Assembly (NCBI RefSeq): GCF_013337045.2
Contig: NZ_CP118262.1
Location: 1-64,000, forward strand
Direction of reading: 5' to 3'
Source of the DNA: Agrobacterium vitis
GTDB lineage: Bacteria > Pseudomonadota > Alphaproteobacteria > Rhizobiales > Rhizobiaceae
DNA length: 64,000 bases
Part shown: positions 2,368 through 45,453 of the stretch, piece after piece
Layout: each line of letters starts with the position of its first letter
Position numbering within the stretch: the first letter of the stretch is position 1
Program-made: the position numbers and the translations under genes
Notes under the pieces: generated by a model
What the model saw: the letters and a program-made list of their open reading frames with translations, nothing else
Databases searched by the model: none
Told to the model about the DNA's origin: nothing

Positions 2368-2426
2368 GAGTCTTGGCACCGATTTGGTGAGCGGATTTCC
2401 TTTGCCTGAAGAAAGGTGAAAGAAAA

Positions 2427-3665
2427 ATGCAAACGGGACATGTAACGACGCCCTTTGGGCGGCGGCCGGCGACGCTTGCCTTGGTGAAAGGGCAATTGGC
2501 GATCGCGGCTTCCACACCAGGCACGCGTGTCGAGAAGTGGAAGGTGTTTCGCGATGTGTGCGAGTCGAGGGAGCGCTTTGGTTTGCAAGACAGAGCGCTC
2601 GCCGTTCTCGATGCCCTATTGACGTTCTACCCCGATGCGCAGCTCGATGCTGAAAACGGGCTTGTTGTATTTCCATCCAATGCGCAGCTGTCCGTCCGCG
2701 CTCATGGGATCACGGAAAGTACACTGCGCCGTCAGCTCCGCGCACTCGTGGATGCGGGACTTATCCAGCGTCGTGATAGTCCGAACGGGAAGCGATACGC
2801 ACATCGCAGTCGAGACGGTGAGATCGAGCAGGCTTACGGCTTCGATCTGAGCCCGCTGCTTGCCCGTGCCGCCGAGCTTGCCTTGCTGGCTCAAGACGTG
2901 GCCGCGGAACGTATGCGCTTTCGCCGGGCGAAGGAAGCACTCACGATTTGCCGCCGAGATGTCCGCAAGCTGATAACAGCTGCGATTGAGGAAGGCGCCC
3001 CCGGCAATTGGGAGCATGTCGAAACGATGTATATTGGAATTCTGGAGCGGCATCCTCGCTATCCGGACAGAAACCAAGTCGAAGCCGCACTCGATGAGAT
3101 GGAGCTCTTGCGTTCTGAGGTACTCAACCTTCTGAAAAGGCTATCGGAAACCAAAAATATACACGGCAATGCCATCCCAAATAACCGTCACATACAGAAT
3201 TCAAATACCGAATCTATAAATGAATTTGAACCTAGCTCCGAAAAAGAGCAGGGCGAAAACTTGCCGGAAGGACCTCGGACAAAGAACGCGGTGCAAGCAA
3301 AGGCTAAGGTTGATTCGATCAAGTCATTTCCGCTTGGTATGGTTCTTCGGGCCTGCCCGCAGATAATCGACTATGGACCCGCAGTCGGAATTTCGCATTG
3401 GCGAGAGTTGATGGCGGCGGCTGTTGTTGTCCGTTCAATGCTTGGGGTCAGCCCATCCGCCTACGAGGAGGCTTGCAATGCAATGGGCCCCGAAAATGCG
3501 GCGGTGGCGATGGCGTGCATTCTAGAACGATCGAACTTAATCAATAGTCATGGCGGCTATCTTCGTGATCTTACGAAACGCACAGTACGGGGCGAATTCT
3601 CGCTTGGGCCGGTGTTGATGGCACTACTGAAAGCACACGGCGGAGAGGGGCGGCGTGCTGGTTAA
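2427..3665 (+). CDS. repC: RepC, replication initiator
   Basis: Replication initiator of repABC plasmids; the origin normally lies inside repC itself. The protein (MQTGHVTTPFGRRPAT...) is 412 aa, close to the usual 400-440. The N-terminal half has the winged-helix-like region around ITESTLRRQLRALVDAGLIQRRDSPNGKRYA (about residues 93-122). The reading frame begins 155 bp after repB, downstream of the antisense RNA, whose pairing is expected to control repC expression. The 193 bp after the stop hold the second copy of a 15-bp repeat and no convincing gene. Confidence 0.96.
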   Translation: MQTGHVTTPFGRRPATLALVKGQLAIAASTPGTRVEKWKVFRDVCESRERFGLQDRALAVLDALLTFYPDAQLDAENGLVVFPSNAQLSVRAHGITESTLRRQLRALVDAGLIQRRDSPNGKRYAHRSRDGEIEQAYGFDLSPLLARAAELALLAQDVAAERMRFRRAKEALTICRRDVRKLITAAIEEGAPGNWEHVETMYIGILERHPRYPDRNQVEAALDEMELLRSEVLNLLKRLSETKNIHGNAIPNNRHIQNSNTESINEFEPSSEKEQGENLPEGPRTKNAVQAKAKVDSIKSFPLGMVLRACPQIIDYGPAVGISHWRELMAAAVVVRSMLGVSPSAYEEACNAMGPENAAVAMACILERSNLINSHGGYLRDLTKRTVRGEFSLGPVLMALLKAHGGEGRRAG

Positions 3666-33786: not shown

Positions 33787-34116
33787 TTAGACAGCGTCGC
33801 TGACACGCATTTCAACATTCAACCCAGCAGCAGCAGCCATATTGATCAACGTGTCCAAGCCGAAAACGCCTACCTCGTGCCGGAGCAGATCTGACACACG
33901 AGGCTGAGTTACGCCAAGTAGCCGGGCAGCTTCCGCCTGCGTCCAACCCTTTGCTTTCACACGGCTCCCAATCGCCGTGATTAAAATCACACGCAATTTC
34001 ATGTTTTGGGCACATGCGGAGTCTCCATCCGCTGGATTGGTCGCATTGGCTATGCTTTTTTCGCCCCCCGAAACCACACGCTTGGAGGTGGTCTCATGGT
34101 AGGGTCTAGGCGCCAT
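33787..34116 (-). CDS. HTH_37/XRE-type regulator, antitoxin-like
   Basis: 109 aa. N-terminal VVSGGEKSIANATNPADGD then a Cro/C1-type helix-turn-helix RVKAKGWTQAEAARLLGVTQPRVSDLLRHEVGVFGLDTLINMAAAAGLNVEMRV. This is the layout of HigA-like HTH_37 antitoxins, which pair with RelE-type toxins; no such toxin is adjacent. Instead it overlaps the end of the SLOG gene by 11 bp and is third in a three-gene operon, so it is likely the operon's own regulator. Confidence 0.82.
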   Translation of the reverse strand: MAPRPYHETTSKRVVSGGEKSIANATNPADGDSACAQNMKLRVILITAIGSRVKAKGWTQAEAARLLGVTQPRVSDLLRHEVGVFGLDTLINMAAAAGLNVEMRVSDAV

Positions 34117-34717
34117 ATGGGGTGCGTTTTTTTTTGCTCTTTTGCTCTAGCTCGCTGTCGTTGACATCGAGAGTGAATTGCTTTTGCGATATGTCCGCAA
34201 TTTTCGAGGATAGGCCGATCTTTTCCTCTGCTTTGGTACGAGCGTGGTCGGACATAAACGTAAGCAGGTAGTTCAACCCCTCTTCGTCAGCGACAGTGAC
34301 GAAATCCTTATTTTTATTTACGAACACAACGGACTTTTTGTCTTCTTTTATTAGCTGAATGACATTGCTCAGTGTGCCTGTGCTCTTGCAATCCCAAACC
34401 ATTAGGCCGTAATTGCTGGCGTGGGCCATCTCGATGTCTTTAGCAGTGTAAAAGGCTCGACTACCGGGCGGCGCTTTCGGGTGAATATGAGTGACCGGCC
34501 ATTCAGCCAAGTTATTGCGCGGCCGATCACCGCTGCAAAAGACGGTCACTCTCTTAGCGCCATACTCAACAAGGCACTGTTGGATCGATGTATCCGCGCC
34601 GTCTGCGTCTCCGACGACAATATCGAGGTCGGACGCGACGATCTTCTCAATCCTACTTTTAACTTTCTCATGCAGGCGGCTGATTGATATGGAACCTGCG
34701 ATAAAAACGGTGTTCAT
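34106..34717 (-). CDS. SLOG-domain (Rossmann, DprA/LOG-like) protein
   Basis: 203 aa. MNTVFIAGSISISRL opens a Rossmann strand; DIVVGDADGADTSIQQCLVEYG matches the glycine-rich nucleotide loop of SLOG proteins, and AHASNYGLMVWDCKSTGTLSNVIQL the second conserved loop. SLOG domains bind or cleave nucleotides and recur in nucleotide-signalling immune systems (family knowledge). The last 50 residues are charged. Start is 4 bp after the phosphoribosyltransferase stop. Exact activity unknown. Confidence 0.75.
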   Translation of the reverse strand: MNTVFIAGSISISRLHEKVKSRIEKIVASDLDIVVGDADGADTSIQQCLVEYGAKRVTVFCSGDRPRNNLAEWPVTHIHPKAPPGSRAFYTAKDIEMAHASNYGLMVWDCKSTGTLSNVIQLIKEDKKSVVFVNKNKDFVTVADEEGLNYLLTFMSDHARTKAEEKIGLSSKIADISQKQFTLDVNDSELEQKSKKKRTPYGA

Positions 34718-34721
34718 TGGC

Positions 34722-35312
34722 TCACTTCCAAGTCACGGCAACAGCGTAGACCCGTGCGATCTTCGGGTAGGTCTTAAGTGTTTTACACACCGCGTCCATC
34801 GTTGCGCCAGTATCATATAGGTCATCTAACAGTAAGGCGTTCCAACTACCATCGCCAGAAATCTGATCGTTAATCGAAAAACGCCCAGCGAGCGCGGCAT
34901 CCTTTTCTGCCTTTGTGTTTAAATTCTTGAGCGGCGTGCCGCCCTCAGGAGCCGGAGCCTTTACGATGATGTTGTTGAACACGCTGGCGTCAATGACCTT
35001 GGCCAGTTCGTTGGCGATCTCATCGACAGGTTGTCTGGCACGCAGGGTGGACGCAGGCATGGGTACTATCAACCCTATCGTTTCAAATAGTGGTAGAATT
35101 GACGTCTTAATTTGGGCGGCTATCGGTCCAGCCTGCGACCAGTCATTGCGATATTTGAGCTGATAAAGTGCTTCTCCGGGCTCTGACCTGGTGGTGTCAT
35201 AAGTAGGGTGGCCAAATTCATTGTGCCCGGTGAAGGTGCTGTGGAGAGAATGCTTGTGTAATGCGTATCCCAAATCCCAGGATCCTGTGATTTGCTTTAT
35301 CTGAACTTGCAT
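34722..35312 (-). CDS. ComF-like phosphoribosyltransferase
   Basis: 196 aa from ATG 35312; a GTG at 35336 is an alternative. EALYQLKYRNDWSQAGPIAAQI, IVPMPASTLRARQPVDEIANELAKVI and the PRPP loop LLLDDLYDTGATMDAVCKTLK are the ComFC-type PRTase core. The N-terminus (WDLGYALHKHSLHST...) lacks the zinc ribbon of ComF. First gene of a tight operon with SLOG and HTH genes. Predicted to handle PRPP and a base or nucleotide; no known competence partner is near. Confidence 0.8.
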   Translation of the reverse strand: MQVQIKQITGSWDLGYALHKHSLHSTFTGHNEFGHPTYDTTRSEPGEALYQLKYRNDWSQAGPIAAQIKTSILPLFETIGLIVPMPASTLRARQPVDEIANELAKVIDASVFNNIIVKAPAPEGGTPLKNLNTKAEKDAALAGRFSINDQISGDGSWNALLLDDLYDTGATMDAVCKTLKTYPKIARVYAVAVTWK

Positions 35313-35630
35313 AAATTTGAACCCCCATGACGCCACCTCTGGTTGAGGACTATGTAATATATTGCTTAGAATGCAAGGCGAATGCGGGTTGCGGCATAAT
35401 GTTAAAGTTGAACTTCTCTACGCCGGGGGGTAGCCGGAGAGCCGACAGGCAAGGGCTGGCTGCAAAGCTCGGAATTGCGGCGCCGCTCGGCCGAATCGCC
35501 TTAAGCGTGTATGTCTATATGGAGATTTGTAAGGGGAGTGCGTCGATCCATCTTGACCGGTCACTGTGCATCCGTATTGCGGCGCCCGCAGGAACGATGC
35601 TAGCCAGCCCAAGACGTTGCACAGGAGCGT

Positions 35631-37430
35631 TCAAGCAGCACCCCAAACCTCCAAATCTGAGCCAACCGCGTTCGCCGATAGTCTTGCTGCAAGGAGTAAC
35701 GTGTTGAGTTGTTTCATCTTCAGGGTTCTTCTTTGGGAAGCTTGGCCATTCGCACATTCGTCATGTTCGGTCTCCGTTAATTGAGGCTGAAGAATCACTA
35801 CTCGCTTTTTGTAGCCGATGGGAAGCGCCTGAACTCGGGCGATAAGTCCAGTTCTGTCTGGTTGTCGAATACCGTTGTGCCAAACGGCGCCCGCGATAAG
35901 ATGATGGCGTCCAGCGTCTAGCGTGTCTGTCAAGGATTGTCGTTCCAGATGACGAAGGTTCTTGACGGCTTGACCCGTAACGACCTCGTACTTCGACGCG
36001 GAGACTTCCCTTGTGACAGCCGAAGAGCCAGCCCCTTTTGCGTGGATCAGAGTGACAAGGTTTGTGGCATCATCAATGTGAACGAAATCAGCAAGTTCCA
36101 TCGAACCGTCATCGCTAGCCAACCAGCCGGTGTTAAAAATGTCGTGGCAATAGCCAAATAGCGAGTCGTCGTGCTGACCCGGCGCCTTCGGCGTCCCGAT
36201 AGACAAACCGAGGGTCTGCCCTACCAGTATAACTGGCTTTTCCTGTGTCACATTGTAATTGGCTAAGTTCTTGAACTGCCAATTGGGAAACCACTGGTCA
36301 GTGTAAGCGCTTCTGAAACATTTTCCTCCGGAAATAGTATGGCCACTGCCATAGTAGATTTTGAGCCAATCATATTCCGCTATCAGGGCATCGAAAGCCG
36401 CCCGGCCGGCCGCTCCTGTCACGGGTCGAGTCGTCCAGTCAAAACCGAGTGTGATCTTGTCGCCAGCTAGAGTCGGAGTGATAGATAGGTCTCCTAGTAG
36501 CGTCGTTTCGAAGGTCACTGTTGCGACGAGATTCGGTCCTGCGCCAGGAACCACGGAGAATTCGGCCCCGTAGGCCCATTGTGCGGCGCGTTCCTTCAGG
36601 GTCTGATCGGTGTCCTCAGCCAAAAGTTCCGGTGGAACCACGGCGATCGCGTCGCCGTCGCTGACGGTTGCCAGATCGTTAACCGCCTGCGCAAGAGCAG
36701 GGAAGCGCACGGTTGGTGGAGTCGCCCCGACCGAAGCCGCCACGTCGAGCAAGATCTCCGTGTCCGCTAAGAAGTCAGCCCAAGTCTTGGGGCGGTTGAG
36801 CCAGAGGCGAGCGTCATCTGGGGAGGCACCGACCACTTGACTCACTGCGCCACTCGACAGGACCAGCGGCACTTTGCTGCGGACCGCCTTAAAGGCGTAG
36901 GTCTGATCGCCGAGAGGATCAATGGCGAACTCCAATGCACGTCCCATCAAGGTCTTCGCGTCAGGCTTGGCGTCAGAGCGGGCGTGAATACCGTCTAACC
37001 ACAGCGCTTTGGTCTCACTGCCGACGAAGCCGGATTCGATCTCGGTTCGGGAGATGGGGCGTGCCGCTGTGAGTTTGCGATCAATCTGCGGACGAACGGC
37101 AGACTCGGATGCAGAGATTGCGGCTAAGCTTCCTTTCACTGAAATGGTCAGGAGGTGGTGGGCCAGATCAGTATATGTTCCCGATGGCGCCCAGGCCGGT
37201 TCCGACCGGTGTTGATATTCAATGGTTACCGTGCGCAACGCACCGCTTACGATGGGTGGGGATGTTCTGAGGAGGGTTCTCGGGCCAACAGCCACGCCTA
37301 TCAAAGCTTCGAGCTCAGCTGTGAGAGCCCGGAGAAGGCGGGCGTTGGCGATTTTGCCTACACCCCGCAAGAGCATGGGTGCAAGATAGGGGCGGAGCGG
37401 TATCGTAGCGTGCGAGCGAGCCATGCCCAC
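35631..37430 (-). CDS. Large unknown protein with a nuclease-like C-terminal motif
   Basis: 599 aa from GTG 37430 (ATG 37424 possible; neither has a strong ribosome site). No family recognised. A long N-terminal half is followed by GYCHDIFNTGWLASDDGSMELADFVHIDDATNLVTLIHAKGAGSS and YEVVTGQAVKNLRHLE. The E-x-A-D-F ... I-H-x-K spacing resembles PD-(D/E)xK-type nuclease cores seen at the end of some defence proteins. Divergent from the NA37-like/RelA-SpoT pair with a 157-bp gap, so the three genes may form one system. Confidence 0.65.
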   Translation of the reverse strand: MGMARSHATIPLRPYLAPMLLRGVGKIANARLLRALTAELEALIGVAVGPRTLLRTSPPIVSGALRTVTIEYQHRSEPAWAPSGTYTDLAHHLLTISVKGSLAAISASESAVRPQIDRKLTAARPISRTEIESGFVGSETKALWLDGIHARSDAKPDAKTLMGRALEFAIDPLGDQTYAFKAVRSKVPLVLSSGAVSQVVGASPDDARLWLNRPKTWADFLADTEILLDVAASVGATPPTVRFPALAQAVNDLATVSDGDAIAVVPPELLAEDTDQTLKERAAQWAYGAEFSVVPGAGPNLVATVTFETTLLGDLSITPTLAGDKITLGFDWTTRPVTGAAGRAAFDALIAEYDWLKIYYGSGHTISGGKCFRSAYTDQWFPNWQFKNLANYNVTQEKPVILVGQTLGLSIGTPKAPGQHDDSLFGYCHDIFNTGWLASDDGSMELADFVHIDDATNLVTLIHAKGAGSSAVTREVSASKYEVVTGQAVKNLRHLERQSLTDTLDAGRHHLIAGAVWHNGIRQPDRTGLIARVQALPIGYKKRVVILQPQLTETEHDECANGQASQRRTLKMKQLNTLLLAARLSANAVGSDLEVWGAA

Positions 37431-37587
37431 AACTAATCAGTTTGGGACGATGTGTCGAGATTGATGATTGCGGGGTTCATCCTCATTCTCTGTGATTCAG
37501 CGGCGGTAAATGTTCGTCTGCTTGTGCGGGACAGGTATTCTATGTAGCTGTTGTAAAATTGAAGTATTCGGCAGCGAGGGGATAAGC

Positions 37588-38607
37588 TTGCCTATCGAGA
37601 GCATCCATACATACCTTGTCTATCCGAATAAGGGGGCTGCCGACCCGTCAGCCATCGTCGGGAGCCAAGTACCGCATGAAGGCGACATGTTCGTCCTAAT
37701 GAGGAACGTGTACGAAAAGGCCGATACCGAATGCAACATCGGCATCGCCTTCAATAAGGGCAACGGCGGCGCTCAAGCGAACGCGCGTCGCGACATGTTG
37801 ATTGCCTATGCCTCAGCGCCTGGGGTCGATTTGGGTCGCGTGCTAGCTGAGGAACTGGCGACAGTAACGACACGTCGCTCGGGGCTCGGGCTTCTATTCC
37901 TGATCAAAGGAACCGAAGGCGCCGAGCACAAGGTGGTAATATCACGCTTTCGTGCCAACAACGGCGTGGTCGTAAACGAGGCTGCCGACATGCTGACGGT
38001 CGAATTCATCGACCGCGTATTCATGAAGAATGCGCATTCCTACAAAGCTGTCGTCTACAAGCATCAGTCATTCCAAGGTGGCTTCTGGAATGGAATGGCC
38101 GTCGACAAGCAGATTAACAGCCAGGATCTGGAGTCGTCGGACTACTGGGTTAAGGAGTTTCTGCTGTCGGACTTCATGACAAGTCCCGCGTTTGGCACCC
38201 GTCGTCTCGCTGTCGCACTGAAGAAAGCCATCAAGGCTACAGATGATCTAGAAGTTAAGCGCCAGATCACCGCCGCAGCTACGCTTGCCAGTGGACTTGG
38301 TGCGGAGACATTAAGCGTTGAGGCGTTCTGTAATCGATACGGATTTACCGAGGGTGCAAAGGCCGCCGTGGTGAAGCAGCTCGAACGAGCTGACCTGGCC
38401 AATGATAATTTCCAGTTCGATGCAGCCGAGTTCACAAAGCGATTGCCCTATCGGACGGTGGAGCTGGACAACGGAGCCATGCTCACTGCCGACGCTGCGT
38501 CCTTCGATAAGGTCTTCGAACACACGCCCGTTGAAGAAGGGGCCGACAGGATACGCTTCAGCACAGTCGGCTCGGTTGTTAGCGAAAAACTGGAGAAAGG
38601 TAGATGA
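37588..38607 (+). CDS. NA37 (nucleoid-associated)-like protein, unknown role
   Basis: 339 aa from TTG 37588, chosen because gagggg lies 7 bp upstream and the preceding Cys-rich stretch looks noncoding. LPIESIHTYLVYPNKG, RRSGLGLLFLIKG, VVISRFRANNGVVVNEA and SYKAVVYKHQSFQGGFWNGMAVDKQIN recall the NdpA/NA37 nucleoid-associated fold, but the match is by eye and weak. The stop overlaps the RelA/SpoT gene by ATGA, so the two are translated together. Confidence 0.6.
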   Translation: MPIESIHTYLVYPNKGAADPSAIVGSQVPHEGDMFVLMRNVYEKADTECNIGIAFNKGNGGAQANARRDMLIAYASAPGVDLGRVLAEELATVTTRRSGLGLLFLIKGTEGAEHKVVISRFRANNGVVVNEAADMLTVEFIDRVFMKNAHSYKAVVYKHQSFQGGFWNGMAVDKQINSQDLESSDYWVKEFLLSDFMTSPAFGTRRLAVALKKAIKATDDLEVKRQITAAATLASGLGAETLSVEAFCNRYGFTEGAKAAVVKQLERADLANDNFQFDAAEFTKRLPYRTVELDNGAMLTADAASFDKVFEHTPVEEGADRIRFSTVGSVVSEKLEKGR

Positions 38608-39215
38608 CGGTAGAAGCTCAATATCGAGCGCGATACGAAACCGTGCTCTTTCCCATCGCCGATAAGCTTTCCACCTTATTGCACGAGATCTTCGCAGGTC
38701 AGCCGCGGATCGATCGCATCTCGACGCGCCCGAAGTCCGTGGAGCGCTTCGTAGGGAAAGCCACTGCGGAGAAGGATGGCAAAGCGAAGTACGATGCTCC
38801 GCTTCATCAGATACAGGATCAGATCGGCGCGCGGATCATCACCTTCTACAAGGATGATGTGCATAGGATTTCGGAGGAAGTTCAGCGCTACTTCCACGCG
38901 ATCGAGTCGAAAGACATGTTGCCGGAGAACGAGTGGGAATTTGGATATTTTGGAAATCACCATATTCTTATGCTGCAGCAAGATCTGATCGACCCGAATT
39001 TCAACAAGGACCTTGTGCCCTATTGCTTCGAGCTGCAGATTAAGACGCTCTTTCAGCATGCGTGGTCCGAGGCGAACCACGATCTCGGCTATAAGCCCGG
39101 GCAGCAGCCACTCGAAAGCGATGAGTTGCGACAGCTTGCCTTCACTTCCGCTCAGGCGTGGGGAGCGGATCGGGTGTTCAACGACCTGTTCGTAAAGCGG
39201 AGCTCGCAGCATTGA
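38604..39215 (+). CDS. RelA/SpoT-domain (alarmone synthetase-like) protein
   Basis: 203 aa, synthetase domain only; no HD hydrolase, TGS or ACT. Motifs line up with small alarmone synthetases: TRPKSVERFVGKA, IQDQIGARIITFYKDDV (the DLxAxRI box), EFGYFGNHHIL (Tyr that stacks on the acceptor nucleotide), and FELQIKTLFQHAWSEANHDLGYK. Members make (p)ppGpp or ppApp, or pyrophosphorylate tRNA as toxSAS toxins. Coupled by 4 bp to the NA37-like gene; no classic antitoxin is next to it. Confidence 0.88.
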   Translation: MTVEAQYRARYETVLFPIADKLSTLLHEIFAGQPRIDRISTRPKSVERFVGKATAEKDGKAKYDAPLHQIQDQIGARIITFYKDDVHRISEEVQRYFHAIESKDMLPENEWEFGYFGNHHILMLQQDLIDPNFNKDLVPYCFELQIKTLFQHAWSEANHDLGYKPGQQPLESDELRQLAFTSAQAWGADRVFNDLFVKRSSQH

Positions 39216-39281
39216 GAACAACTGCTGCAGGCCTTTATATCGTGTTCGCTTAGATGGTCACTCCGCGTTGGCTTTCTGAAG

Positions 39282-39764
39282 TCAGGCCGGCTCGACCTCG
39301 GCCGCTTCCGAATGATCCTTTAGGGCCTGGGCTTCCTCCAAAGAGATTTTGCTGGCCACATATTCCTCCAGCTCGGCAGCGTGGTTTTCACAGCCCTTCG
39401 CCTGCTTGCGAAGAAGTAACATATGGTCAGAGAGTTCTCGCGGCGTGCAAAGGCTTATGGGAACCAGTGCCCTCTCACCGTTTCTGATCACGGGATATGA
39501 TTTAACCAAACGGGTATGGCCCGGAAACACCATCTGAGGAGAGGCGGGGTCGTCGCTCATGCCGATGCGCTTCAGCATTCGCGTCACTACCTTTACCAGT
39601 TCCTTTTTGGCAAACGCCCTGTAGAAGTCGGCATGAGGACTTGTCAGAGGCTTGTTCTTGAAAACTTCTTCAACAATCTGGCTCGGCTGTGCAATCTGGC
39701 CAGCATCCATCCGCTGTCCGATCAGCTTATGCAGCTCAGACAATAGTGCAGCGTCTTTGGCCAT
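39282..39764 (-). CDS. Hypothetical protein
   Basis: 160 aa from ATG 39764 (MAKDAALLSELHKLIGQRMDAGQIAQPSQIVEEVF). A longer frame upstream is unlikely. Basic, helical first half (YRAFAKKELVKVVTRMLKRIGM), a short beta-like centre (LVKSYPVIRNGERALVPISLCTPREL) and an acidic tail. No family recognised. Convergent with the RelA/SpoT gene. Confidence 0.6.
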   Translation of the reverse strand: MAKDAALLSELHKLIGQRMDAGQIAQPSQIVEEVFKNKPLTSPHADFYRAFAKKELVKVVTRMLKRIGMSDDPASPQMVFPGHTRLVKSYPVIRNGERALVPISLCTPRELSDHMLLLRKQAKGCENHAAELEEYVASKISLEEAQALKDHSEAAEVEPA

Positions 39765-40397
39765 GAGCTTCGTCCTATAAATCTTGAGCAGAGAAAAGGC
39801 ACGGCCGCGCAGGCGCTTCCGTTCCCGACGGCTCCCAGCGCTCGGGGAGCTTGTCTGGAAGGCATGCATTGCCCAGTGATAATCCACGGATTCTAAGGAT
39901 TGTCAAAGCAGATGTTCTGATTTTGTTCGTGGAAGCGATAACGCTAGTCGATAGGGTGCTTTGCGGAGTCGGTCCGACCATTATCCATTGTGGTGCATCT
40001 TTCCTCACGCTTGAACTAGCAGCACGTCCTGCCTAACGGGCAATACATCTTCCATAGCAAGGGACTCTACTGGTCGCTCGGTACGATTTTCGACAGTCAG
40101 CGTTCAAACCGCAGGTTCAAAGAGGGGGCTATATCGCATAGAAAATCGACGCCCGTACCTCAGAGCTTGGACTAGACGAGCTATGACCGCTTTGCGCCGT
40201 CACATCAGACATTGAGAGTGCGTCAGTAGATACCTGAAAGCTGACATTGCTGACCAAATGGCAATGACCTACACACAAAATTGCTCGGCATGAGGCGTCG
40301 CAAACGTGCCTTTGCGCCGTTGTAAAATCAGAAAATTAGCGACGTTACCTAACAGCTTGGCAGGGTTGGAAGCAGCAATCTGCCAACAGTGGGCCAT
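39765..40397. other. 633-bp stretch without a supported gene
   Basis: No frame with plausible codon use. The only repeat seen is ctttgcgccgt at about 40190 and 40311. Possibly eroded DNA at an island boundary. Confidence 0.6.
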
Positions 40398-41273
40398 TTA
40401 CCGACGAAACCGTGGTGTCCAACTTTCTTCCAAGGCTTCGATCTCTTCCGCATCTTCAATTTCATCAGGCGCAATAAAAAGCAGCGTGAGCTGGTAACCC
40501 TCCCGTTGAAGCAGCGTCTGCTCCAGAACTTTTGGGCAATGAGAACGGCCTTCACCGTTTAGCCAGACACTTCCCTGAATTTCAGCCCATTCTGACGGAC
40601 GGGATTGTGTGCGGTTAGAGGATCGCCCGGATAGGCTTCGCTCTGGAAGATGATGTTTCGAGCGAACCGACAGAGGTGGAAAATCCTTGGTCGCCCTGGT
40701 GTATCGAATAATCCCGTCTTTCGAGAATACGAACGCACAGCAATCATCGGTCAGCTCGACATACCGGGCAACAGTCGCCTCGACGCTTGTCCCGTATTGT
40801 CTAGCAAGCGTTTTGACGTGCTCTACGTCGGCATCGCCCAGTTTGCGCATATCGGAAACGAACCATGGCCTCGGCATGAGTATGCCGGCCGCAAACCGGT
40901 TGGCTTCTGTTTCCTGTTTCTGAACAAGCGTTTCAATCCGCCGCTCGATCATGTCCTTTTTCGTACAGCGCTGATCCCCCTTATGCCACGGGATCAAGAA
41001 ATGTCCGATCTCGTGAGCGATGGTGAAGCGTCGACGCCCACCCTTTGTCCCGGCCTTGTAGAGAATGACACCCTTCCGTTTGTCTGGATCGGTGGTGAGG
41101 CCGCCCTCGAACTCCTCTGTTTCCATCTCCAAAATGTCGATAATGTTGATGGAGCTTGCCAGATCTTCGATTGGGACCGGCGCCGCCCAGTCCGGGTGAT
41201 GGCGAAGGATGCAAGCGATGATAGACTCTGGAGCGGCACAGTCCGCGAGATCCATCATCAGCTCGTCGTTCAT
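40398..41273 (-). CDS. ImmA/IrrE-family metallopeptidase
   Basis: 291 aa. The zinc motif HEIGHFL is near residue 88 with Glu in KQETEANRFAAGILMP as third ligand, the ImmA/IrrE core. The first 70 residues and about 130 C-terminal residues are extra. Such proteases cut a partner repressor on a stress signal. Its start overlaps the XRE gene stop by 4 bp (ATGA), the usual ImmR-ImmA pairing. Confidence 0.9.
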   Translation of the reverse strand: MNDELMMDLADCAAPESIIACILRHHPDWAAPVPIEDLASSINIIDILEMETEEFEGGLTTDPDKRKGVILYKAGTKGGRRRFTIAHEIGHFLIPWHKGDQRCTKKDMIERRIETLVQKQETEANRFAAGILMPRPWFVSDMRKLGDADVEHVKTLARQYGTSVEATVARYVELTDDCCAFVFSKDGIIRYTRATKDFPPLSVRSKHHLPERSLSGRSSNRTQSRPSEWAEIQGSVWLNGEGRSHCPKVLEQTLLQREGYQLTLLFIAPDEIEDAEEIEALEESWTPRFRR

Positions 41274-41590
41274 TTCGCGTCCTTATCCTTCAGGCGGTCG
41301 GCGACAACGCGCAGCGTTTCCCAATCCTTATCAGATAGTTTGCCGCCGAACTCGCGAAAAAATTGTAATGAGGATCGGTCAAGCTCTTCCTGATCGTCCT
41401 CAGCAAGGTACTGGACGGTAACGTTGAAATGTGCGGCGAGCTTCTTAAGAAGCTCAAGGCCCGGATTGGTGCTGGTTCCCTTCTCCAGTTCCCAAATATG
41501 AGCCTTCGAAACTGACACCGCGTCGCCAACCTGTTGGAGCGACTCTCCGCGCTTCAACCGAAGCTCCTTGAGCTTCGAAGCTAATGACAT
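41270..41590 (-). CDS. XRE-family repressor, ImmR-like partner
   Basis: 106 aa. Helix-turn-helix KLKELRLKRGESLQQVGDAVSVSKAHIWELEKGTSTNPGLELLKKLAAHFNVTVQYLAED at the N-terminus; short acidic tail. Upstream partner of the metallopeptidase; it most likely represses its own promoter in the 149-bp gap before the divergent DUF2188 gene, and may control that gene too. Confidence 0.9.
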   Translation of the reverse strand: MSLASKLKELRLKRGESLQQVGDAVSVSKAHIWELEKGTSTNPGLELLKKLAAHFNVTVQYLAEDDQEELDRSSLQFFREFGGKLSDKDWETLRVVADRLKDKDAK

Positions 41591-41739
41591 TTTCGATCTC
41601 CATACATGCTCTTCGGACGCAGCCAGTATTTGGAAAACGCCGTTCTGTCAAATGAACGATGCGTTCGCAGTTGACAACGCCCTATTCGTTCACCATATCT
41701 TACGGCATGTCCATATTGGGACGGAAAGGAGGTGAGAAA

Positions 41740-41964
41740 ATGTCAGGAAAGAACCAACACGTTGTGCCGCATGCTAATGGTTGGGCAGTGCAGGGTGCCG
41801 GGAACAGCCGCGCCACTGCGGTTCACTCTACCCAAGCTGAAGCAACGGCTCATGCTCGTTCGATCGCGCAGAACCAACAGTCTGAACTGTTGATCCACGG
41901 CCGAAACGGTCAGATTCGTGAACGAGACAGTTATGGCAATGATCCCTACCCACCAAAGGGCTGA
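41740..41964 (+). CDS. DUF2188 small protein
   Basis: 74 aa from ATG 41740 with a very strong aaaggaggtga site. HVVPHANGWAVQGAGNSRATAVHSTQAEATAHARSIAQNQQSELLIHGRNGQIRERDSYGNDP is a complete DUF2188 domain. Function unknown; family members are small basic proteins. First gene of a three-gene set with a TIR protein; an intrinsic terminator follows at once, so this protein may be made in excess. Confidence 0.88.
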   Translation: MSGKNQHVVPHANGWAVQGAGNSRATAVHSTQAEATAHARSIAQNQQSELLIHGRNGQIRERDSYGNDPYPPKG

Positions 41965-41970
41965 TCCACC

Positions 41971-42003
41971 AAGACCGCGTTCATCCAGAGCGCGGTCTTT
42001 TTT
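41971..42003 (+). terminator. Intrinsic terminator between DUF2188 and TIR genes
   Basis: Perfect 9-bp stem aagaccgcg / cgcggtctt, 11-nt loop, then TTTT. It lies 6 bp after the DUF2188 stop and 47 bp before the TIR start. Either it separates two units or it works as partial termination. Confidence 0.88.
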
Positions 42004-42049
42004 GTGAGGGGATTCGCAGATTGGCGGATCGACAAAGGAGAAGAAAGAT

Positions 42050-42778
42050 ATGGCTAGATGCACCGCTCCAGTAAAGGGCCATCGATCAGCCGCTGCGGCA
42101 GCCGACTGTCCTGCTTGTGGAAGCCGCTATGGTCGCTATAGCAGTTCTAGAGGATACGGCGGCGCGTACAGCTCGTCCCCGAGTTCTTCATACTTCCAGT
42201 CAGGAAGCAGCAGCGGCCGAAGCAGCAGTAGTGGCGGGTCGGGGCGCCGCACTGCAAAGCCGCGATGGTCCGGAGCCGGTTCGACTGTGTTGTATACGCC
42301 CGAACAAGTGCAATCACTCACGCCTGTTCGCGAAAATGTCGAGAATTTAGCAGCGTCGCAGCCTGACCTTCGAGACGTTTTTCTTTGTCATGCGTGGGAT
42401 GACAGGCAGGGATCTGCCAAGGAACTGCATGACCTGCTCGAAGCGCGAGGTGTACGTGTGTGGTTCAGCGAGAAGGATCTTGGCCTTGGCGTGCCGATGA
42501 TGCGGGCGATCGATAAGGGTTTGATTAATTCCCGAGTTGGTATCGTTCTGGTGACCCCGGCTATGCTACGCCGTTTGCCGGCAGAAGGCATTGCAGACAA
42601 AGAGCTGTCAGCGCTTCTAAGGCGCGAGCGGCTCGTTCCGGTTGTTCACGGGACAACCTATGAAGAGCTTGAGCAGGTCAGCCTACTGTTAGCCTCCCGA
42701 GCTGGGTTGAGCACTGCCGAAGAGTCGATGGCGGAAGTCGCCGCTAAGATCGCCGAACTAGTTGTCACTCAGTCTTGA
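42050..42778 (+). CDS. TIR-domain protein with Cys/His N-terminal motif and Ser/Gly linker
   Basis: 242 aa. Residues 4-23 hold C4, H11, C20 and C23 (MARCTAPVKGHRS...DCPAC), a possible small zinc site. Residues about 30-70 are Ser/Gly/Tyr-rich linker. From about 105 a TIR domain: DVFLCHAWDDRQGSAKELHDLLEARGVRVWFSEKDLGLGVPMMRAIDKGLINSRVGIVLVTPAML, with the candidate catalytic Glu in FSEKD or DKELS. Bacterial TIR domains cleave NAD or make cyclic ADP-ribose signals in phage defence (family knowledge). Strong ribosome site aaaggagaag. Confidence 0.88.
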   Translation: MARCTAPVKGHRSAAAAADCPACGSRYGRYSSSRGYGGAYSSSPSSSYFQSGSSSGRSSSSGGSGRRTAKPRWSGAGSTVLYTPEQVQSLTPVRENVENLAASQPDLRDVFLCHAWDDRQGSAKELHDLLEARGVRVWFSEKDLGLGVPMMRAIDKGLINSRVGIVLVTPAMLRRLPAEGIADKELSALLRRERLVPVVHGTTYEELEQVSLLLASRAGLSTAEESMAEVAAKIAELVVTQS

Positions 42779-42795
42779 TGTTCCGGGAGGTCGAG

Positions 42796-43464
42796 ATGTC
42801 GATGCGCCGCGTACACCTTCGCAAACTCCTCAAAATTATGTTCCTGGAGGAAGGTCCTCGCCGATCGGCGCTCCGGACCGACATTCGAGAGGATCGTGCA
42901 AGAGCAGCGGATGACGGTGGCGAGGGCGGCGGGGATTTCTACGGGCCCTTCTGGAGTGACGCGAAGCGGCATGTTTTCGGCATGCACGATCTGCACGCCG
43001 CGACTGATGGGCGGATCGCCGGAAATGGCCGCCGGCAAAATCTCTATCCGCAGCTACGGGATGGCTTCCTACTTTGGTGGGACGAGAGGCGCCGCTGGAC
43101 GAACGCGCCCTTTGCGCCCGGACGACAGCTCGGGACGCAGTTTCCGTTTCCGGGGCTCGATGCCGTCGTGAAGGTCGACAATATTTTGTCCGCCCGCGAT
43201 GGTCGTGGCGTTGAGCATTACGTCTACCCCTATTTCTCAGAGACCCCTGTTCTGGACGAGCAGGCTGCGCGGCTCGGGCTTTGGCTGTTGGGCCAAGCGC
43301 TCCTCGGTGTACCTCACGAGGAGATCCGGGTTTTGGACGTTATCCGTGGCGAACCCTTCTCAATTGATCGCTATCCGCTTGCAGGAAACGAGGAAGATAG
43401 CTTCCGAGACCTATACGCTGCCCTCCTTGAAGAATGGGAAGCGCTTCGAGCAGAATACGACTGA
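42796..43464 (+). CDS. Unknown protein next to TIR gene
   Basis: 222 aa from ATG 42796 with gggagg 5 bp upstream; a TTG at 42775 would overlap the TIR stop. Pro/Trp-rich centre (FYGPFWSDAKRHVFG, GFLLWWDERRRWTNAPF, TQFPFPGLDAVVKVDNILSARDGRGVEHYVYPYFSETPVL) and an acidic helical C-terminus (LYAALLEEWEALRAEYD). No family recognised; compact, well-ordered composition suggests a real enzyme-like domain. Likely cotranscribed with the TIR gene, so a possible effector, sensor or inhibitor. Confidence 0.7.
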   Translation: MSMRRVHLRKLLKIMFLEEGPRRSALRTDIREDRARAADDGGEGGGDFYGPFWSDAKRHVFGMHDLHAATDGRIAGNGRRQNLYPQLRDGFLLWWDERRRWTNAPFAPGRQLGTQFPFPGLDAVVKVDNILSARDGRGVEHYVYPYFSETPVLDEQAARLGLWLLGQALLGVPHEEIRVLDVIRGEPFSIDRYPLAGNEEDSFRDLYAALLEEWEALRAEYD

Positions 43465-43667
43465 CGGTCCTGCCAGCAGATGTGAGAAGTATGCTCGCGG
43501 GACACCGATGCATATGCGGTTGTCGCAAAAGTGAAACTTAGTAGATCAGGGGGAAACGACTGTTCTCAGCCACAAACTGGCTGTCCTTGTCAGGCTAACG
43601 TGCTGAATCGTCAGTGAGAATGACACCTTAGACATGATTTGGTAAACGGGCCGTAGGTTCGCATCCC

Positions 43668-43914
43668 TTCAAGGCGCACCTTGAATTTAGCCAACTCATT
43701 TCTTCGGGAAGGCTTTGGGCTTCGGTTGATACAATCGCCTTTTGGCATTCGAGCGCAGAGCATTTCGAACATCCTTGTCCACGATCGACAGGTCGAACCA
43801 TTCCGGATCAAAGTAGCCGCCGCACCACCGACTGGTTTCGGCGTGTTCAGGATCTTCCCCGTCGGCGATGGTCTTCAGGAACCGCTCATATCCTGCCCCC
43901 CCCCAACATCTTCG
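43668..43914 (-). pseudogene. Partial copy of the pRiA4b ORF-3-like gene (3' part)
   Basis: 247 bp nearly identical to 56524-56771, which is the 3' end of the intact gene at 56552-57175. Same orientation. The copy ends in a C-tract (9 C) where the intact gene has aaaccccgc, and the 5' two thirds are absent. Cannot encode a full protein. Otherwise nothing is recognised between 43465 and 44061. Confidence 0.85.
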
Positions 43915-44376
43915 TAACTATCCGGTGAAGGCCGCTACGGTTTCGCCTGATGGAATACCCACGTTTAGCGAACGCGCTGTTTAGCCGGATCGGGAGGTTC
44001 GGGTTGAAAGCTGCTTGTCCGCCGCCGTGGACAGAAACGGACAAGCCGCCACAGAGGTTCGCTACTTCAGGGGCAGGAAGAGCTCTGCCACCGCCGCATG
44101 TTCAGGTGCTTCGGGAAAGAAGGTGAGACGCTGGCAATACAGGGGGAAATCCCTCGCTTCCTCGCCACTGGCCGGCAGCCAATCGCGATAGAGGTAAAGC
44201 GCGGCAGGCTCCAGATCATCAGTGTTGCCGACGACTTTCAGCACGGCGCAACGGCCACCGGGGATCATGCCCGCCTCGATATGCTCTCCATTCGTCTTGA
44301 TCGGCTGATCAGTGCTGACACAAAGGTCCAGTCGATACTCGTCCGGAGACGTCACCCGCGGACGCCCTTCTAAGAG

Positions 44377-45453
44377 TCAAGCCGCGATTTGGCTTTGGTT
44401 GATTTCCCTGTGCCGCCGCATGATGATGGCGAAGACTTCGCGGGCGATGTAGCGTTTGAGGCAGCGAATTGCCTCGAGCTTCGATTTTCCGGCTGCGATC
44501 CGTCGGGCGACGTAGTCCTGCGTGCGTGCATCCAATCGAAGCCTCCCAATGGCGATGATGTGGATGGCACTGTTTGCTGCGCGATCCCCACCCCTGTTCA
44601 ACCTGTGCCGAACCGTTTTTCCGGAAGAAGCGGGGACGGGGCTGACGCCGCACAATGCGGCGAAGCTCGCCTCGGACTTCAACCGGTCGGAGTTATCGCC
44701 CGCCGTGAGAAGCAACTGCGCCGCACTGTTCACGCCGATTGCGGTTTGAGCAAGTAGTTCAGGAGCGAGATCCTTGACGATGGCCTCAATCATGTCGTCG
44801 AGATCGGCGATCTCGTCATGGAGTTCGAGATAACGCCGCGCCAGAGACTTGAGAGAGATGCGGTAGGCTTCCTCGACCTGGCGATACGCAGTGAGGTCAG
44901 GTCTGCCGGCTGCGAGCGTACGGATCAATTGCATCCGCGTCATGCTGCGCAGCGGATCGCGGATTTTGTCCGGTGCGCAGACGATGGTCATCTGGATCAT
45001 CTGCAGGGCAATACGGCGCGCCTGAATAGCGGTTTTGCGGCAAACCCTTAGGATGCGTAAACTTTCTACCATGCCGTCCCTGCTGCGTGGCGTTACGGTG
45101 TGCCGTCTCGCAAAGGCTGCGTGGGCCGCACTTTCTGCGTCGAAGTTGTCATTCTTGCCGCGCCGGCGGCGGTCGAGTTTGTCAGGTGCGGTGACCTCCA
45201 GAATCTCGACACCTGCGGTTTGCATGTAGCGCAGCAACCCCGCGCCGTAGCTGCCAGAGCATTCGATCCCGACCCGCTGGAGATCCCCGAACGATCGCAT
45301 CCAAGCCAGCATCAAGCGATAGCCGTGTCGGGTTGTCGGGAAGCTCTCGGTACCGAGAACGCGGTCGCGATGATCAACGACTGCCGCGACATGCAAGTCC
45401 TTGTGTGTATCGACGCCACCAATGACGTGAGTTTCTGCTCGGTGTTCAGCCAT
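44377..45453 (-). CDS. IS110-family DEDD recombinase
   Basis: 358 aa. N-terminal RuvC-like domain with the first acidic residue in VIGGVDTHKDLHVAAVVD and others in VGIECSGSYGAGL and KNDNFDAESAAHAAF; C-terminal Transposase_20 domain with LCGVSPVPASSGKTVRHRLNRGGDRAANSAIHIIAI containing the catalytic Ser region. Start supported by gagaggata just upstream. Complete and probably active. Confidence 0.95.
   Translation of the reverse strand: MAEHRAETHVIGGVDTHKDLHVAAVVDHRDRVLGTESFPTTRHGYRLMLAWMRSFGDLQRVGIECSGSYGAGLLRYMQTAGVEILEVTAPDKLDRRRRGKNDNFDAESAAHAAFARRHTVTPRSRDGMVESLRILRVCRKTAIQARRIALQMIQMTIVCAPDKIRDPLRSMTRMQLIRTLAAGRPDLTAYRQVEEAYRISLKSLARRYLELHDEIADLDDMIEAIVKDLAPELLAQTAIGVNSAAQLLLTAGDNSDRLKSEASFAALCGVSPVPASSGKTVRHRLNRGGDRAANSAIHIIAIGRLRLDARTQDYVARRIAAGKSKLEAIRCLKRYIAREVFAIIMRRHREINQSQIAA

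Follow-up and report, generated by a model that had tools for sequence, protein, structure and literature searches.

An NA37-like gene and the synthetase-only RelA/SpoT gene directly behind it form a conserved, probably defense-related unit that recurs in widely different bacteria. The pair was analyzed in a 64,000-nucleotide stretch of Agrobacterium vitis DNA (the window). On balance, we lean towards reading it as a two-gene growth-arrest or anti-phage module, in which a partner of the YejK fold would control a small alarmone synthetase (SAS) effector. As a unit of two genes spanning roughly 1.6 kb, it is a testable candidate.

Organization of the locus

The layout given in a preliminary description, with a 599-aa reading frame, a 157 bp gap, a TTG start and an ATGA junction, was reproduced in its coordinates (Table 1). 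The divergent 599-aa gene is separated by 157 bp from the TTG at 37588; in the family alignment, the start of its relatives falls two codons further into the gene, at 37424, and its residue numbers are counted from there. The mechanical ORF of the NA37-like gene begins with the ATG at 37510, and we place the start at TTG 37588 because most relatives are about 339 aa long and begin at that position. Its stop codon and the start of the RelA/SpoT gene overlap in an ATGA at 38604, and the two genes are probably translationally coupled. When the 599-aa, NA37-like and RelA/SpoT proteins were scanned against Pfam, the only match was RelA_SpoT (PF04607, E = 3.8e-12) in the 203-aa enzyme. At E ≤ 0.001, the NA37-like protein has at least 352 homologues and the 599-aa protein at least 191, which, together with the preserved NA37-like/RelA gene order, argues that the genes of this locus are more than chance.

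Table 1. Genes at the locus, in window coordinates.
Feature	Coordinates	Strand	Remarks
599-aa protein gene	35631..37430	(-)	GTG start; RdgC-like N-terminus and PD-(D/E)xK-like C-terminus
NA37/YejK-fold protein gene, 339 aa	37588..38607	(+)	TTG start; first of pair
Synthetase-only RelA/SpoT (SAS) enzyme gene, 203 aa	38604..39215	(+)	Second of pair; PF04607
160-aa gene, possible accessory	39282..39764	(-)	Accompanies pair in some Rhizobiaceae; without Pfam match

Conservation of the gene pair

Scanning the NA37-like alignment over one genome per species gave 42 loci, all found from the NA37 side. A RelA/SpoT gene lies directly 3′ of the NA37-like gene in 40 of them, and in the remaining two (L046 and L048) the contig ends there. 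The NA37-like frame is interrupted in L039, and its C-terminal part alone is present in L044 and L045. The hosts are mostly Alphaproteobacteria, joined by Paraburkholderia and a Gallionella bin; other genomes or bins are labeled Planctomycetota, Eremiobacterota, Gemmatimonadetes and Chitinophagales, and these phylum labels may be wrong, since several loci are metagenome bins. The NA37-like gene ends in ATGA in 32/46 cases and in GTGA in 9/46, making 41/46 compatible with an overlap.

Tests from the enzyme side were few, comprising four viral contigs, two genomes and five plasmid records. Among 397 genomes of the window's order, strong enzyme matches occur in two, namely the window's own genome and G361. 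Both have the partner, which also accompanies the enzyme in all five plasmid records and in three of the four viral contigs with strong matches. Three intact plasmid copies are about 90% alike, and two of the five records are probably the same plasmid. In a split copy, the pair spans the start of the record, and an annotated IS481 transposase sits at the edge of the enzyme. The remaining viral contig, L069, carries the enzyme at 2391-3095 without an NA37-like gene; by eye, the frames flanking it resemble phage terminase and portal genes. Carriers of the pair thus include contigs of chromosome size as well as plasmids and predicted viral contigs. The two genes are very strongly, though not absolutely, linked.

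The partnerless enzyme of L069 is what one would expect if the two genes were chance neighbors, with a lone accessory synthetase that happened to lie next to a nucleoid-type gene unrelated to it. The adjacency across very diverse hosts and the prevalence of overlap-compatible gene ends make this highly improbable, and we consider it refuted by the conserved pairing. For 42 pairs (35 of the 42 genome loci, the window, and three plasmid and three viral copies, after broken, partial or near-duplicate copies had been left out), the distance matrix of the partner correlates with that of the enzyme at r = 0.904, a value reached by 0 of 2000 permutations and partly expected for genes that merely travel together.

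The RelA/SpoT enzyme

The enzyme has a synthetase domain without a hydrolase, with donor and acceptor residues present: R42, K44, K52, D72, R77, Y115, E143 and Q145 are invariant across the 42 pairs compared. Matched on order and spacing rather than by alignment, the first six correspond to R64, K66, K74, D90, R95 and Y128 of FaRel2, which bind ATP, magnesium and the acceptor base according to the part of PMC11782079 drawn on; judged by spacing, the enzyme of the window has no residues equivalent to FaRel2 S70 and R77. Given the residue match with FaRel2, the enzyme of the window is probably active. A C-terminal block, A-Q-A-W-G-A-D (A183 to D189), is likewise invariant across the 42 pairs, with one change in the L039 enzyme outside that set.

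Against solved structures, the enzyme profile matched YjbM first (2.3e-11), with YwaC at 2.3e-7, RelP also matched and CapRel at 0.074. This profile, nearer to small (p)ppGpp synthetases than to CapRel, counts against the proposed growth-arrest or anti-phage module. All 30 aligned enzymes match the PADLOC model PDC-S33 (best 8.5e-11). A long RSH of 699–807 aa is also present in each of the 26 genomes tested among those behind the 42 loci, and the window's genome has its own of 751 aa. The enzyme is therefore not the lone housekeeping synthetase that the preliminary description had named as evidence against its proposal.

The YejK-fold partner

None of 24 scanned members of the NA37-like family matched the NA37 model PF04245 at E up to 1, and the model found no match in the window's genome, although an E. 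coli control matched. In the predicted structure (mean pLDDT 74.7), YejK is the best fold match over most of the protein's length. The label "NA37-like" used earlier for this protein thus holds at the level of fold and not by Pfam models. A best fold match to YejK together with no Pfam match is compatible also with other antitoxin types (pZFD/Panacea, SAH, Tis1-like).

To our knowledge, the role of the YejK/NdpA fold is poorly understood. The family differs from YejK/NdpA nucleoid-associated proteins (NA37, PF04245) in that 24/24 scanned members lack the NA37 model match and in that this putative DNA binder has an enzyme gene behind it in 40/42 loci. If the module is as we propose, the YejK/NdpA fold gains a fixed enzyme partner.

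A proposed mode of action

Our proposal that the partner is a restraint and sensor draws on related enzymes such as CapRel, which act in toxin–antitoxin systems and phage defense. As described in the part of PMC9712102 drawn on, an antitoxin region within CapRel itself keeps the enzyme inactive until a phage capsid protein releases it, whereupon it pyrophosphorylates tRNA. By analogy, the YejK-fold partner would restrain or license the effector, a small RelA/SpoT-type pyrophosphotransferase that is an accessory to the long Rel which the cell itself encodes. A phage or other invader that disturbs DNA or the nucleoid would be sensed by the partner and the enzyme released; once free, the enzyme would make alarmone or pyrophosphorylate tRNA, and growth would stop before the invader spreads. 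A strict need for an antitoxin is weakened by enzymes without an intact partner in L069 and in G421, a close relative of the window, unless the gene is silent there. We advance only tentatively the stronger version, a widespread phage defense in which a nucleoid-protein-like sensor reads phage-disturbed DNA and drives a dedicated pyrophosphotransferase into alarmone or tRNA-pyrophosphate arrest.

The pair resembles the toxSAS (FaRel2, PhRel, CapRel) in its short synthetase-only RSH, matching donor and acceptor residues and single partner gene, in being carried both by plasmids and by predicted viral contigs, and in the conserved adjacent partner of a TA-like operon, seen at 40 of 42 loci. Unlike them, it has a YejK-like partner rather than the pZFD, Panacea, hydrolase or Tis1-like antitoxins named in the parts of the toxSAS literature drawn on, and its enzyme lies nearer YjbM/RelP than CapRel by profile. 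The small alarmone synthetases YjbM, RelP and YwaC are the closest solved relatives by profile, but the enzyme of the pair has a conserved partner gene, carries the C-terminal A-Q-A-W-G-A-D block and in most family members has a Y-F-G-x-H G-loop in place of the Y-R-S-Y-H of YjbM. The PADLOC candidates PDC-S33 and PDC-S71 are matched by 30/30 enzymes and 28/28 relatives of the 599-aa protein, respectively, but the matches are distant and partial, the PDC-S33 model having 349 positions against 203 residues here. The "S" in PDC-S names denotes single-gene candidates.

No description of the pair appeared among the open-access titles and abstract openings listed, a set with preprints and most subscription papers outside it, and the founding toxSAS paper may list the pair. 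The papers drawn on, each in part, were PMC9712102, PMC11782079, PMC8832971 and PMC8565334. Among small alarmone synthetases restrained by a partner, CapRel is a well-studied example of an enzyme that senses phage directly (PMC9712102, in the part drawn on). A nucleoid-protein fold as partner would, if confirmed, be a new control principle for SAS enzymes and would tie growth arrest through alarmone or tRNA-pyrophosphate to the state of the nucleoid. We know of no nucleoid-protein-like sensor class described for any SAS enzyme.

The 599-aa protein

Fold matches of the 599-aa protein are RdgC-like at the N-terminus and PD-(D/E)xK-like at the C-terminus, the latter as the preliminary description had anticipated. 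The E-x-A-D-F ... I-H-x-K motif singled out there was borne out as well, with E443, A445, D446, F447, H461 and K463, along with Q485, invariant in all 28 aligned sequences. Because H-x-K stands in place of the usual (D/E)-x-K, the protein is no more than a putative nuclease. Each of the 28 aligned family members matches PDC-S71 (best 2e-13).

All three genes had been proposed to form one system, with the 599-aa nuclease-like protein as a second effector. The divergent layout across 157 bp in the window accords with this, as do the matches of both families to PADLOC candidates (PDC-S33 and PDC-S71), but the family distributions do not: the 599-aa family is absent from the examined flanks of all 42 other NA37-like genome loci (with upstream sequence of about 1.1 kb or less at L015, L023, L041 and L045), and the NA37-like/RelA pair is absent at 9/9 other 599-aa loci, a set separate from the neighborhoods of the closest other relatives, P0002-P0011 (69-82% identical), and including five with an adjacent DUF2235-type gene. 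The 599-aa gene and the pair were seen to adjoin in one near-identical lineage only, that of the window and its close relatives G421 and G702. We therefore consider a three-gene system very unlikely and judge the 599-aa gene to be a separate passenger outside the pair, with no linkage seen beyond the window's lineage. The neighborhood search called for in the preliminary description thus recovered the NA37-like/RelA pair (40/42) and not the 599-aa gene, and of the suggested anti-phage or plasmid-maintenance effectors, the pair stands as probably defense-related while the 599-aa protein falls away as its partner.

Within that lineage, L120 (G421:C21:1-16000) and L119 (G702:C8:46000-62000) each have an NA37-like gene disrupted by a rearrangement of its own; in G421, the first 224 codons of the partner are gone and the enzyme gene is kept. 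The breaks look as if the pair were easily lost or its start attracted insertions. Separately, the adjacent gene at five of the nine non-window 599-aa loci (L006, L106, L108, L109 and L110) encodes about 350-400 aa and is annotated DUF2235 in L006, which we take to be a Tle1-like hydrolase; with this 599-aa subgroup it forms a separate candidate two-gene system.

Genomic surroundings

A simple ORF caller was applied to 36 of the 42 loci, and the two closest genes that it called on either side gave 144 neighbor proteins; as a control, 134 of 156 genes were taken by a seeded random draw from 26 regions on the same contigs, about 40-61 kb away. At 1e-10, the neighbors matched 177 PADLOC models and the control genes 9, numbers that are inflated by redundant models and are not gene counts. 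The control matches were IetA, TRIP13 and mad models, mad3 and mad8 included, while at least 20 of the 25 neighbor models listed at 1e-10 are methyltransferase models. Eleven neighbor sequences were removed before a stricter scan: four with methyltransferase motifs, four copies of the 160-aa gene, two L011 near-duplicates and one L036 relative of an L029 gene. At a cut-off of 1e-15, against 1e-10 for the control, 65 models were left, and the 25 listed include TmtA, PDC-M01, several reverse transcriptase models, mad3, mad8, PtuA, REase_II, QatC, Vsr, capP and ThsB. The capP and ThsB matches are not independent, since they come from L044 with the same scores as in the window; over 38260-44362, L044 and the window share 99.98% identity, and the two are nearly the same island. 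A Pfam scan of the 144 neighbors, run without the control set, gave four resolvases, three integrases, a NADAR-DarT1 antitoxin and NaeI; ordinary genes were matched as well, EPSP synthase, UvrA and MFS transporters among them. The neighborhood of the pair is, roughly speaking, mobile and defense-rich.

These surroundings bear on the main rival explanation, in which the pair would regulate mobile elements, with a YejK-like DNA-binding protein controlling the island, the enzyme making (p)ppGpp to tune host physiology in transfer or stress, and any defense being incidental. Together with TprA, NdpA2, which is counted among the nucleoid-type proteins of the NdpA group, acts on genes and transfer of the ICE PAPI-1 (in the part of PMC8565334 drawn on), the enzyme profile is closest to (p)ppGpp synthetases, and each of the five partner-bearing plasmid records is of conjugative type. 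The richness in defense-model matches, however, and the fact that contigs of chromosome size carry the pair as well as plasmids and predicted viral contigs speak against this explanation, which we regard as rather unlikely beside a growth-arrest or anti-phage module.

The 160-aa gene occurs at 5/42 genome loci, mostly convergent with the pair and once (L021) in the same direction. All three plasmid records with this gene also carry the pair, and so do both genomes with strong matches among the 397 of the window's order (the window's own and G361).

Other genes of the window deserve brief mention. The regulators capP (40398-41273) and capH (41270-41590) lie near a ThsB-like TIR protein at 42050-42778 (PADLOC bits 401). 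At 34106-35336, a gene for a phosphoribosyltransferase-like protein of 204 aa, matched weakly by PADLOC PsyrT (2.7e-7) and ShosT (8.9e-4), adjoins a 203-aa gene that is SLOG/DprA-like by eye and has no Pfam match, possibly a PsyrTA/ShosTA-like pair. The segment 44363-45739 is missing from the otherwise 99.98% identical L044, and the 358-aa ORF inside it (44377-45453) has, by eye, the look of an IS110-type transposase.
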